A DNA stretch of 64,000 bases from Moniliella sp. 'wahieum'. Its lineage: Eukaryota > Basidiomycota > Moniliellomycetes > Moniliellales > Moniliellaceae. A program made the translations under genes and the position numbers. Of this stretch, positions 5,368-61,480 are shown in pieces. Within the stretch, counting starts at the first letter, position 1. Each line of letters begins with the position of its first letter. The notes below the pieces were generated by a model. It was not told the DNA's origin. It saw nothing but the letters and a program-made list of their open reading frames with translations, and did not search any database. The DNA lies in NCBI GenBank assembly GCA_003971905.1, contig RSEE01000004.1, forward strand, positions 62,001 through 126,000, in the 5' to 3' direction.

Positions 5368-5423
5368 GATGCATGATGCCTGATGCCTGATGCCTGATGC
5401 CTGATGCATGATGGCTGATGCCT
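5368..5423. repeat. Heptanucleotide array, 8 units of GATGCCT type
   Basis: Eight consecutive 7-bp units: mostly GATGCCT, the first and sixth GATGCAT, the seventh GATGGCT. Read as TGA + 4 bases, the variable part is TGCC or the palindrome TGCA. It lies in the divergent SRP54/TRS20 promoter, about 180 bp from one start codon and 145 bp from the other. Confidence 0.97.
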
Positions 5424-5565
5424 ACACGTACGCAGGCCTGGGCGGGATCGACTGAAGTTTCACTCACTCCTGGGCGAGTCGTGAGCGGTTGGGTGCTGGC
5501 ACGCTTCCACGCCTCCGTCCAGCCCCCGCCGCCCCCTCCCCCCGCCACCACCAACCCGCGCCGCG

Positions 5566-6146
5566 ATGAGCTATTACTTTGTCATTGTCGGTCCCCGCGA
5601 CGATCCCTGTACGAGGCTGACCTTGCTGCGCGGTCGGGCGGATCGGTGGGCCCATCGTCGCTGCTGGCCACCAGCGCCACCACAGCGTCCAATGGCGTGT
5701 CTCAGGAGAAGGCGGGTCCGTTTGGGTTTGGCCAGCCGCTGGGGCAGGTGTCCGGTGGCGCCGGCTCTGTTCCAGTGGGGTTGGGCGCCAGTGGCCATAC
5801 TCGCGCCGGGCTTAGCTTTGGGAGATACAACGACAAGGATGTGCTGCAGATGATTGCACACAGCAGTCTGGATGCGGTGGAGGATGTGGCGCTGTACGAC
5901 GGCGGACTCTACCTACGAGGGGTGGACAGGATCAACGAGTGGACCACAAGCGCCTTTATTGTCCCCGGCGGCACTCGCTTCCTCATCTTGCACGAGCACA
6001 AACATGACGAGGGCATCCGCAATTTCTTCTGGACGTGTGGGAGTGGGGTGAAACTCAACCTTAACCCGCTTCGCGAGCCCAACTCGCCGGTCCTGTCGGC
6101 TTCCTTTGACTCGCGGGTTCGCGCCAGTGCTCGCAGGTATCTCTAA
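5566..6146 (+). CDS. TRS20: TRAPP complex subunit Trs20 / TRAPPC2 (sedlin)
   Basis: Trs20/sedlin is a longin-fold subunit of the TRAPP tethering complexes in ER-Golgi and Golgi traffic. The start MSYYFVIVGPRDDP, then LYEADL in the next frame, is the classic sedlin opening. Conserved blocks follow: DVLQMIAHSSLDAVEDVAL, LYLRGVDRINEWTTSAFIVPGGTRFL and HEHKHDEGIRNFF, then NPLREPNSPVLSASFDSRVRA. Between strand 1 and helix 1 there is an extra Gly/Ser/Ala-rich stretch of about 60 residues, bringing the protein to about 190 residues against the usual 140. A shift near 5608 and a compensating pair at about 6028-6050 disrupt the frame. No intron is needed. Confidence 0.88.
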
Positions 6147-6505
6147 GCTGGCTCTCTCTGTTTTCGTCTTGGTCCCCGCACCCTGCACTCCCACATCAGA
6201 CCTCGCCTGGCCGGATTATACCACTCGATCCAACGTTCAACGTTGGACCTTCCCCCACACCCATTTCTTTTTCTGGTCTGATTTCCGCTTGATCGCTATA
6301 GCACCCCCTCCTGACACATTTCCAAGAGGGATTACCGCGAGTCAGACAGCTCTTCCTCTCACTCTTATAGCCTAACGCCCCTCTATCCAGCCTAGAAAAA
6401 TAGTCCCCCCGCTGTCTCAGTGTCTCTGTCAGTGTAAAGCAAACAGGGAATGAGGAATGTATACAATGTCGTCGATCGTAGCACCATTCGAAAGGAAATG
6501 CGGGG
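6147..6505. other. Convergent 3' intergenic region
   Basis: About 360 bp between the stops of TRS20 and RPT3. It presumably holds both 3' UTRs and polyadenylation signals. I see no gene or repeat. Confidence 0.6.
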
Positions 6506-7832
6506 CTACTGGTAGAACTCCAACCGCCCTGCGTCTGCCTTCTTGACTGTCTGCTTCCACGCCTCTTCGAAATCGGCGGGAAGAATGACATAGCGGTTTT
6601 TGCGTACTGCTTGCAGGCCAGCCGCTTGGCAGATCGATGCAATGTCCGCCGCGGAGATACGATCAGGTCGACCCACAAAGTCCTCCAAATCCACATCGGG
6701 CGCCAAATTCATTTTGCCCGTAATAGTTTGGAAGATCAATCGCCGCTCCCGACGCGAAGGGTTGGGGAATTCAATTTTCCGATCCAGGCGACCGGGTCGA
6801 AGGAGGGCTGGGTCGAGCGTGTCTGCACGGTTGGTGGCCATGATCACCTTGACATTGGCGTCTTGGTCAAACCCATCCATCTGGTTCAACAACTCCAACA
6901 AGATCCGCTGTACTTCCCGATCTGCGCCCGTTTGCGCATCAAATCGTTTTGTCGCAATCGCATCAATCTCGTCGATGAAGATAATGGCTGGCGCATTTTC
7001 CCTAGCCAATCGGAACACGTCACGCACCATGCGGGGTCCCTCCCGAGATACTTCTGGACAAATTCCGAACCATTCACCCGAATGAATGAAGCCGTTGTCG
7101 CATTGGCCACGGCCCGCACCAGCATCGTCTTGCCTGTCCCTGGCGGGCCGTAGAGGTACACCCCGCGGAGGGTCAATCCCAATGCGTTTGTACAGGTCAA
7201 ACTCAGTCAACGGCAACTCAACCGCCTCGCGAATCTCTTGCTTCTGAACGTCCAGCCCACCCACATCATTGTACGTTTCGGTGGGCTTGTCATGCTCTCC
7301 CAGCATGGCAATCGATGAATCAGCCTCGGGCGGGAGAACATCGACCAGGGAATTGCTGTGGCGGTGCAGGGCGACGCTCGACGACGGCTTCAGCAGTTCG
7401 CGGTCGATAGTAGAGAGAATGCGCACGACATAGTTGGAGCCGGTAGTGCTGCCCACAATCCCCGTGTTCTCGTCAATCGCTTCGAGGAACTGGCCAATGA
7501 CTAAAGGAACACTCTGGATGCGTTTCACCTCTTCCTGGGCACGGATCAGTTCGCGCTTGAGATTGCGCTGCTCGTCTTTCTGAATGATAAAGAGGTAGAG
7601 GAGGTAAGTCACCATCCGGAGAGAAAGTGGCAGATACAACGGAGCCCACAACGTACCACACAGTCCTCCATCGTGCTGAGAAAGTCGAGGTGGCGTTGGA
7701 GCTTCTTGTATCGCAGGAAGGTGTCTTCCTCTGGGCCATTTCTTGGTGCAGCCCTGCTTTTCAGCCAGAGCGTCGGTGATGGTAGGCTCAACCGCCTGAA
7801 GAGTCGTTTGTCTCAATCCCGAGTTCCTCCAT
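6506..7832 (-). CDS. RPT3: 26S proteasome AAA-ATPase subunit Rpt3 (PSMC4)
   Basis: One of six ATPases in the proteasome base ring that unfold substrates. The Rpt3 assignment rests on [52 protein letters not shown] and [19 protein letters not shown]. The AAA domain has Walker A GPPGTGKT (in a shifted frame near 7150), Walker [17 protein letters not shown], and [20 protein letters not shown]. The protein ends RLEFYQ. Exon 1 starts [12 protein letters not shown] at 7832 and includes the helix [20 protein letters not shown]. An intron at 7580-7656 joins it to [20 protein letters not shown]. Frame breaks near 7790, 7170 and 7050 fit missing bases in short runs; the last two compensate. Confidence 0.95.
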
Positions 7833-60359: not shown

Positions 60360-60849
60360 ACTACTCCTCCTCGGCTTCGTGTCCCACTGTATCACTCTCT
60401 TAGCATTGTTCAACCGGTCAACATACTTGCTGTGGTTTCCCTCCACGTCGGAATCATTCTTTTTCACCCTCTCCCCACCCCGATCTGCTGGCAGACCCAA
60501 TAATAGTCACAAATTCCTGCGCTTGTTGCCGCCGTACCACCGTCCTAAGCAGTAGCGACTGAGGACGCGGGTATTCTGCCCATGTATATCCAGTGTGGAG
60601 GATACCCATCAGACTTCAATCCATAAGCACTAATAGCCGTTTGAACGTGATTCTTAGCCCGAACGACTGAGGGGTATTTAGGCCCCGCCCTGGCTGGTTG
60701 CAGTGGTGCTACACCCCACATGACCGCTTCGGCTGGCTCATGCCAATGGGCAGTACCAGTTGGTAACCGGCAATGCTACTATTGTCGATTGGCTGGACCG
60801 GTCGGGTGCAGCTCTTAGCGACATGCGCTAAACCATTTAAATTAGCCGC

Positions 60850-60870
60850 TGACCGGTGACCGGTGACCGG
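60850..60870. repeat. TGA-CCGG heptad array
   Basis: Three perfect TGA+CCGG units. Confidence 0.97.
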
Positions 60871-61445
60871 CGAGGCCCACCCAACCCAGAGACACAAGTC
60901 GTACTGGTGGGGCAATGTGGAGTCCATTCCGCTACAGCGGAACTGGTGGAGGCATATGCGCAAACTCTGCGTCTGTTTGGGCGCACAAAAGAATAACCCT
61001 ATCCCCAAGGTGCACAAAAAGGGGCGACCCAAAAGCAGAGCTTCTTGGCGTCTGACCACCACCAACTCTTCCTCCAAGCTTCCAACCTTCCCAAACGATC
61101 CTTTGGTTACTGAAGCTCTGATCGCTGACTCTGCGTACTTGGAAGAAAACTTCATCGCTTGCAACTGGCGCGAGTGGCCTTCGAAGGGATGCACGACAGG
61201 CGCAAGCTCGATTGCGCACGCCGGTCTATTCACCCTCCAGTGGCGAGCAATCGTAACACCACTGGTAGTGGTTCTGCTAATGCCGGCAAGAAGGAATACG
61301 ACGGGAATAAAGTTCACAGACCAAAGCTTGCCCATGCTTTGACTCTGTCTACGACCCGTTGTACATACCTTGTGTTTCCTCTCAAAATCTATTTATCCTT
61401 TTTTCGTGCTTGGGTACTTGTCTCGATGTAGCTCTTGAGTTGGCG

Positions 61446-61480
61446 TGAACGTTGAATTGAGCGAGCGCTGAGCGCGTTGA
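61446..61480. repeat. TGA-N4 words (ACGT, GCGC)
   Basis: TGA-ACGT-TGA at 61446-61455, then TGA-GCGC at 61469-61475 and a further TGA at 61478. The spacing between them is irregular. Confidence 0.75.

Follow-up and report, generated by a model that had tools for sequence, protein, structure and literature searches.

Introduction

Excision footprints of hAT (Ac/Ds) transposons are among the described products closest to those considered here: in the available sections of a study in yeasts, two copies of the target are joined through a brief stretch that repeats the end of the flank in inverted form, an arrangement ascribed there to opened hairpins (PMC5873905). Hairpin-capped breaks are likewise on record as the work of a fungal host enzyme, the domesticated hAT transposase Kat1 of Kluyveromyces lactis, which according to the excerpted report acts in mating-type switching (PMC4763223), whereas the sites considered here are TNA throughout the genome. 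In rad27-deleted yeast a single template-switching event can combine palindrome extension with a short duplication, as far as the accessible part of that account goes (PMC5677150). Here we analyze a 64,000-nucleotide stretch of the Moniliella sp. 'wahieum' genome (the window; positions 62001-126000 of contig C4, in an assembly of 69.5 Mb and 223 contigs) and the 12-bp unit that recurs in it and genome-wide, TNAxy-y'x'-TNAxy, in which N, x and y are free and the two copies of a 5-bp direct repeat enclose 2 nt that are the reverse complement of the repeat's end. For this 5-2-5 rule no description was found in the titles and abstracts listed by searches of open-licence papers. In the assembly, alleles that have the additional 7 bp of this typical product occur together with alleles that lack them.

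Results

The Heptad Arrays Are Built from a 12-bp Unit

The original prediction described intergenic DNA stepping at exactly 7 bp with a constant TGA and a mostly palindromic four-base core. The heptads are there: by eye, the 13 coordinates that were named hold TRA or TYA heptads at 7-bp steps, and a heptad array is also present at 5368-5423, although its units are mostly non-palindromic GATGCCT. Against 30 dinucleotide shuffles of the window, both strands included, TGA-N4-TGA occurs 68 times where 31.4 are expected, and 40 of the 68 are palindromic (1.77 expected, standard deviation 1.6), so that the palindromic cores clear the shuffled control by a wide margin. In a working sample of 264 kb, comprising the window and 20 tiles of 10 kb, 178 of 317 such sites are palindromic (about 25-31 expected); all 16 possible palindromes occur there and 11 in the window, in line with the claim of at least ten. 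Scanned genome-wide, as had been proposed, (TGAN4)3TGA gives 6448 matches and the reversed pattern 1198, while in a 50-kb Escherichia coli control 5 of 29 TGA-N4-TGA sites are palindromic and the inverted 2 nt are found in none of four isolated TNA pairs.

The view that period and dyad are conserved and the letters free holds for N, x and y, but the constant is TNA, of which TGA is one case, and the unit is not the proposed N4-TGA-N4 mini-hairpin. Among the 64 triplets in the sample the only clear outliers are TGA/TCA, TAA/TTA and the shadow pair ATG/CAT. Palindromic N4-TGA-N4 alone is enriched (13.6 vs. 1.08 per thousand), whereas neither non-palindromic direct repeats (7.7 per thousand vs. 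10.3 for all triplets) nor non-palindromic hairpins (3.3 vs. 3.65) are. Palindromic hexamers A-N4-T pair at a one-base spacer 74 times, 62 of them identical, and at other spacers from 0 to 11 only 2-11 times each, except at spacer 8, where one unit is skipped (37 pairs). Furthermore, the 66 maximal period-7 runs of TRA plus a palindromic four-mer that fall in the 12-bp class have fixed ends, T..2 in 25 and the mirror 3..A in 19, the remaining boundary phases holding 1-7 each.

Such ends bear directly on plain heptamer replication slippage, as in minisatellites, with palindromic loops escaping repair. A 7-bp tandem duplication gives runs of at least 14 bp, whereas the fixed-end class sits at 12 bp, and exact 14-bp duplications at TNA whose arms are non-complementary do not rise above background (8/22; other classes 2-8 each), a count by which a tandem 7-bp target duplication without inverted nucleotides was also rejected. 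Slippage does fit the variation of arrays by 7 and 14 bp between haplotypes and the TCACC, TCAGC and CTATC polymorphisms, in which the inverted arm is already present in the short allele. It explains growth and not origin, being contradicted for the origin of isolated 12-mers, and as a full account we regard it as very unlikely.

Isolated 12-bp units are those without period-7 extension on either side. There are 44 of these for TNA, where 15 trinucleotide-Markov resamples yield 0.67. The inverted dinucleotide y'x' is present in 44 of 64 isolated lag-7 TNAxy pairs (4.0 expected), and in 33 of 604 pairs of the other 15 classes pooled (37.8 expected). In 43 isolated units N is G in 20, C in 13 and A or T in 5 each, and 15 of the 16 xy dinucleotides are represented; since N, x and y are free, recognition of one fixed sequence is ruled out and copying is required. 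The class preference is graded, with 6 GNA and 5 CNA isolated units where about one each is expected.

Two inverted nucleotides (P2) dominate but are not exclusive. P2 occurs with a second copy one base longer in 6 of 10 cases and two bases longer in 4 of 10 (0.6 expected each), the latter being direct 7-bp nnTNAxy repeats, that is, 9-bp insertions, a rarer sister product; beyond 7 bp the sample holds no candidates (0/0), and all classes pooled give 16 seven-bp copies with P2 (6.5 expected). P1 is in modest excess at TNA, with 10 of 16 7-bp second copies (4.0 expected), 12 of 27 6-bp ones (6.8) and, for 3-bp second copies (TNAxy-y'-Axy, +4 bp), 99 of 206 (51.5). P3 forms are few (2/15 and 1/12, 0.2 expected each, plus 1/3 at a 9-bp copy).

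Three further candidates were rejected: TGA acting as a stop codon, given that TAG is near chance (6 vs. 3.5) and both strands are used; dinucleotides of terminal inverted repeats (TIRs) left between 3-bp duplications, given that xy matches the flank instead; and sticky-end inversion, given 12 TGA-N4-TCA in the window against a mean of ~23 at 15 other spacings (range 14-34).

Separate TNA 5-2-5 loci number 126 in the 264 kb, 29 of them in the window, against a mean of 1.25 over 20 dinucleotide shuffles; extrapolated from this sample, the assembly would hold ~33,000 loci, both haplotypes counted. Counts for six other first/third-base classes are CNA 14, GNA 13, TNC 8, GNC 4, ANT 2 and CNG 2, and isolated TNA units range from 0 to 12 per 10-kb tile. 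Genome-wide, TNACTAGTNACT has 5565 matches and its reversed control 220; VNACTAGVNACT, which covers the nine non-T base combinations together, has 1182, its reversed control (6222) matching TCGA heptads and hence not being a clean one. Odd palindromes make up 428 of 647 exact 7-mer tandem occurrences, and some non-palindromic arrays exist.

The units are rarer in long open reading frames (ORFs), in agreement with the intergenic places that had been named. With gene positions approximated by stop-to-stop ORFs of at least 200 aa, which span 56% of the sample, and with arrays entering the counts in more than one phase, such ORFs contain 36 of 246 TNA 5-2-5 sites; for the 5-2-5 sites of other classes the figure is 55 of 180, and for the remaining lag-7 repeats it is 905 of 2569. 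Short repeats of all kinds are depleted in long ORFs and TNA units more so, but part of the TNA depletion is automatic because heptads carry stop codons. That sites are rarer within long ORFs would also suit selected binding sites or RNA/DNA hairpins, as would two arrays of 3-4 copies that outdo shuffled sequence in folding (z -2.1 and -3.4). The free x, y and N, with all 16 palindromes in use, leave no fixed site to select, however; hairpins lacking the direct repeat are not enriched, the two isolated 12-mers tested do not fold, and arrays are hypervariable between haplotypes. We consider selection of this kind scarcely credible.

Long and Short Alleles Are Both Present in the Assembly

The assembly contains two haplotypes, at least where examined. 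By DNA search, allelic copies were found of window 57500-61500 on contig C16 (at 95%), of segment L021 on C55 and of segment L025 on C79, while a search with window 44000-53999 found no long near-identical copy. Eight aligned allelic segments, picked from array-rich tiles, comprise 19,804 columns with 665 substitutions (3.4%). Their indels number 132 of 1 bp and 49 of 2 bp (181 together), then 12, 12, 3, 4, 13, 3 and 3 for 3-9 bp, the short-indel counts being sensitive to MAFFT gap placement; the 132 single-bp indels suggest unpolished long reads. From 3 bp up, 7 bp is the commonest length (13 of 57 indels of 3-16 bp). An exact 5-2-5 unit is overlapped by 11 of the 13 seven-bp indels (9 TNA, 2 CNA), the two misses being imperfect heptads, and by 0 of 27 indels of 3-5 bp, 3 of 4 of 6 bp, 1 of 3 of 8 bp and 1 of 3 of 9 bp. 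Because the 7-bp allelic indels overlap 5-2-5 units, they point to insertion mutation and array growth, not to a binding-site family. The feature is not an element kept for its hairpin; it is more aptly seen as what a 7-bp insertion mutation, segregating between haplotypes, leaves behind.

In the cleanest case, ACAGCCATAACCC faces ACAGCCATAATGCATAACCC, which on the reverse strand reads as TTATG becoming TTATG-CA-TTATG, and the short allele has TTATG without the CA arm. By eye, TGGAT likewise faces TGAAT-AT-TGAAT and CGGCC faces CGACC-GG-CGACC; TCCTC faces TCCTC-GA-TCCTC, a pair not aligned as a 7-bp gap, and TGATG faces TGATG-CA-TGATG with a net 6 bp. Twice, G stands at position 3 of the short allele while both copies in the long allele carry A there. 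For TCACC, TCAGC and CTATC the y'x' arm already stands in the short allele, and simple duplication would suffice. In 177 site views, in which arrays again count in more than one phase, the two haplotypes match completely, 8-bp flanks included, in 16. In another 57 they differ at equal length; the length difference is a multiple of 7 in 39 and some other value in 65.

Two further observations concern allelic arrays. At L021:8126-8170 the haplotypes differ in unit identity at equal length (TGTA, TGTT vs. CCGG, TGCA), as if rewritten. At L025:7152-7168 an allelic 5-bp duplication, TTACT-TTACT, lies beside a TTACT-AG-TTACT unit and is perhaps a P0 form.

Possible Origins of the Insertion

For the class as a whole, insertion mutation via fold-back copying followed by array growth is a highly probable account. 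How the copying happens is a matter of more tentative choice. At slightly less than even confidence, we read the TNA 5-2-5 units as scars of a recurrent 7-bp insertion made through a TNA-directed staggered break, a hairpin end and P nucleotides. A TNA-directed enzyme would cut a staggered break of 5 nt (up to 7 nt) with TNA at its centre; of the two ends, one would close into a hairpin, as happens after hAT or RAG cleavage, and would mostly be reopened 2 nt away from the tip, leaving the two P nucleotides y'x'; and the partner end would be filled in, usually trimmed by two bases, and joined through end joining. The product would carry new TNA sites, where further hits and slippage may build homogeneous or mixed 7-bp arrays. 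A zero-loop 2-nt inverted copy beside a 5-bp direct copy is what an opened hairpin and end joining of a staggered break give, the graded preference for TNA over GNA and CNA is easier to reconcile with an enzyme than with strict base pairing, and a P2 second copy that was never seen beyond 7 bp, symmetric about N, suits a dimeric enzyme. Such an enzyme may be transposase-like and, because no matching resident element is present in the 264 kb, perhaps domesticated.

Several results weigh against this proposal. P2 dominates here, with P1 modest and P3 few, whereas known hairpin-type footprints are heterogeneous, Ds excision in yeasts giving 28 footprint kinds in 128 excisions in the available text (PMC5873905). 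In the 264 kb there are no TIR elements with a 7-bp duplication (exact TIR of at least 9 bp, length 40-6000 bp), and none of the 11 with a 5-bp duplication is of the form TNAnn/nnTNA. Pfam searches of the genome were empty for the hAT-dimer domain (PF05699) and for KDZ, neither of which matched any of 14 control genomes, and for DDE_Tnp_4 (PF13359), which matched 1 of 14. All 13 seven-bp indels come from the L021 and L025 segments, with none in the window pair (6,919 columns) and likewise none in the L021 1-3592 segment. Three of the eight new-unit polymorphisms read are non-TNA (CTATC, CGACC, TCCTC), and the short allele may itself be derived, as deletion between 5-bp repeats would equally yield it.

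A polymerase could in principle produce the same scar, and we take this to be a close rival, though less likely than not. Strand displacement from a nick 5' of TNA would make a 5-nt flap, TNAxy; the polymerase would, at the junction, turn onto the flap and add y'x', and ligation to the flap 5' end would close a y'x'-TNA-xy mini-hairpin, giving a +7 insertion. Such a turnaround needs no element or special enzyme, yields exactly 2+5 nt, is compatible with tens of thousands of loci and places the second-copy boundary at T, as found in 44 of 54 P2 events (second copy 5 to 7 bp). However, it leaves the restriction to T..A unexplained. Enrichment is lacking in the complementary classes ANT, CNG and GNC, which means that pairing between positions 1 and 3 is not in itself enough to account for TNA. 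The known stable DNA triloops are of the GNA type, yet GNA units number only 6 (1.2 expected); 3-bp stems (6+3) are at chance (5 vs. 4.2), and longer second copies keep TNA though T is no longer at the flap end. A precedent is the template switching with palindrome extension and duplication of rad27-deleted yeast, as outlined in the accessible part of that study (PMC5677150).

The scars might also be ordinary excision footprints of a cut-and-paste transposon that has a TNA-centred target and is active now or was until recently, a reading that we judge improbable. Some elements of the IS5/Harbinger type do duplicate TNA as their target. Two target site duplications flanking P nucleotides are the layout typical of such footprints, as the partial source has it (PMC5873905), but beside 126 scar loci the 264 kb contain no TIR element whose duplication, at 5 or 7 bp, would match, the same search also giving 111 hits with 3-bp duplications, and two larger insertions carry other duplications by eye, ACCAC (3.6 kb) and CCCGC (172 bp). 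A more specific form of the hairpin-break proposal seems to us somewhat unlikely: that a host-encoded, element-free nuclease, be it a domesticated transposase or a hairpin-forming enzyme of unknown kind, cuts at TNA genome-wide and that the ends are sealed and reopened like V(D)J coding ends, with near-exact +7 products at some 30,000 loci that still segregate.

Features of the Window and Other Repeats

Units and arrays of the window are collected in Table 1.

Table 1. TNA units and heptad arrays in the window (window coordinates; hyphens separate the 5-2-5 parts)
Positions	Strand	Feature
5368-5423	+	array of GATGCCT (TGA-TGCC, non-palindromic); includes a single palindromic unit, TGATGCATGATG (5402-5413)
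8209-8220	.	5-2-5 unit GATAATCGATAA
8272-8283	+	TGAAC-GT-TGAAC, isolated
10439-10450	+	TGAAG-CT-TGAAG
14747-14760	+	CCTGAGGCCTGAGG
18888-18899	+	TGATA-TA-TGATA, isolated
19037-19060	+	array TGATGCA x3
19181-19192	-	TGAGG-CC-TGAGG, isolated
21556-21583	+	array CTTGAAG x4, ~100 bp upstream of tRNA gene (array-to-tRNA stretch 21556-21766)
27396-27407	+	CTTGAAGCTTGA
27432-27443	+	GATGATCGATGA
27578-27591	+	CTTGAAGCTTGAAG
39113-39133	+	array TGTGACA x3
39499-39510	+	GGTAACCGGTAA
45601-45610	-	TCACGCGTCA, palindromic heptad, incomplete as 5-2-5 unit, outside the locus count
45672-45690	+	array TGACATG
45831-45842	-	TGACG-CG-TGACG, isolated
45907-45918	-	ACTCAGTACTCA
46044-46055	+	TAATC-GA-TAATC, isolated
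47188-47199	+	TCAGC-GC-TCAGC, isolated
51723-51736	-	CTTCAAGCTTCAAG
51846-51857	+	GTTGAACGTTGA
51887-51907	+	two overlapping units, different xy: GATGATCGATGAGGCCTGAGG
57629-57640	-	TGATC-GA-TGATC, isolated
57835-57853	-	TCATCGA array; other haplotype has TCATCGTTCATCGTA
58138-58192	.	mixed array of CGTTACG, TGTTACA and GTTAAAC heptads; unit identities haplotype-dependent
58272-58285	+	CGTGACGCGTGACG
58492-58503	+	GCTAAGCGCTAA
58515-58526	+	GTTGAACGTTGA, second occurrence
60850-60868	+	array TGACCGG

Ten long ORFs were scanned against Pfam, and five gave matches (proteasomal ATPase, Pex2/12, Aft1 HRA, CAP, porin). The window further contains a 39-bp tandem repeat (53106-53293) within the ORF of a CAP-domain protein (52511-53755) and eight copies of the 15-bp tandem repeat ATAGCCTTGAGGAGG at 46544-46665.

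Elsewhere, L025:2863-6497 is a 3.6-kb repeat with TG...CA ends and the 5-bp duplication ACCAC, absent from the C79 allele; at least 11 near-full copies exist at 94-96%, and by eye it has the look of a Ty3/gypsy-type retroelement. L021:7393-7565 is a 172-bp repeat with the 5-bp duplication CCCGC and, by eye, a 3' stem-loop, found in at least 30 other places at 93-99% and absent from the C55 allele. Two copies resembling miniature inverted-repeat transposable elements, with a TIR near CATAGCTAATCG, lie on the reverse strand of segment L044 (~1150-1270 and 3080-3200) and are absent from the C3 allele. The genome also has 14 5.8S rRNA matches, from 148.6 down to 120.3 bits, on contigs C2, C6, C21, C33, C37, C39, C41, C83, C89, C103, C137, C178 and C195, which may be divergent rDNA copies, pseudogenes or mixed source. 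A TTAGGG-type end is seen at one of four contig starts inspected and, like the Pfam matches, is consistent with a fungus.

Discussion

Where an insertion mutation keeps to one sequence target and one length and carries an exact inverted copy, it bears the fingerprint of a single molecular mechanism; making new tandem repeats from single 5-mers, this one shows how repeats with dyad symmetry may arise. If an enzyme is responsible, fungi possess a genome-wide hairpin-break process; if a polymerase is, strand turnaround is far more regular than known. Both mechanisms are testable in culture.

Like heptanucleotide micro- and minisatellites, the sequences form tandem arrays of variable length, but most arrays here are odd-palindromic NNTNANN heptamers that originate in a 5-2-5 insertion, and head-to-tail duplication of any 7-mer is at odds with a fixed-end class of 12 and not 14 bp. 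With all 16 palindromes present, they also lack the conserved core letters of a transcription-factor site family. PIF/Harbinger elements make a 3-bp TNA duplication by means of a DDE_Tnp_4 transposase; TNA is present here, in a duplicated unit of 5 bp. The mitochondrial (A)n-TATA-(T)n repeats of Fusarium are, in the available sections of their description, similarly optional palindromes at mutable intergenic places, although with homopolymer arms, in mitochondria and without a 7-bp rule (PMC7218506). In rad27-deleted yeast, the accessible account has fold-back proceeding via inverted repeats with variable lengths, (PMC5677150), whereas in the present case +7 is the dominant outcome and an arm need not exist beforehand. 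The inverted repeat that quasi-palindrome template switching presupposes is absent both from isolated units, which lack period-7 extension, and from the TTATG allele without its CA arm.

The hAT target duplication is 8 bp, whereas the duplication here is mostly 5 bp, up to 7 with P2. P nucleotides do stand between the target copies, at the 44 of 64 isolated TNA pairs (4.0 expected); their ends and lengths are not heterogeneous, P2 being dominant, and the 264 kb hold no resident TIR element with a matching duplication. The palindromes of hAT footprints are, in the text available, centred on the complemented base, whereas those here have an even centre (PMC5873905). While duplication length, heterogeneity and resident element thus keep it outside the hAT family, the scar works like a P-nucleotide footprint.

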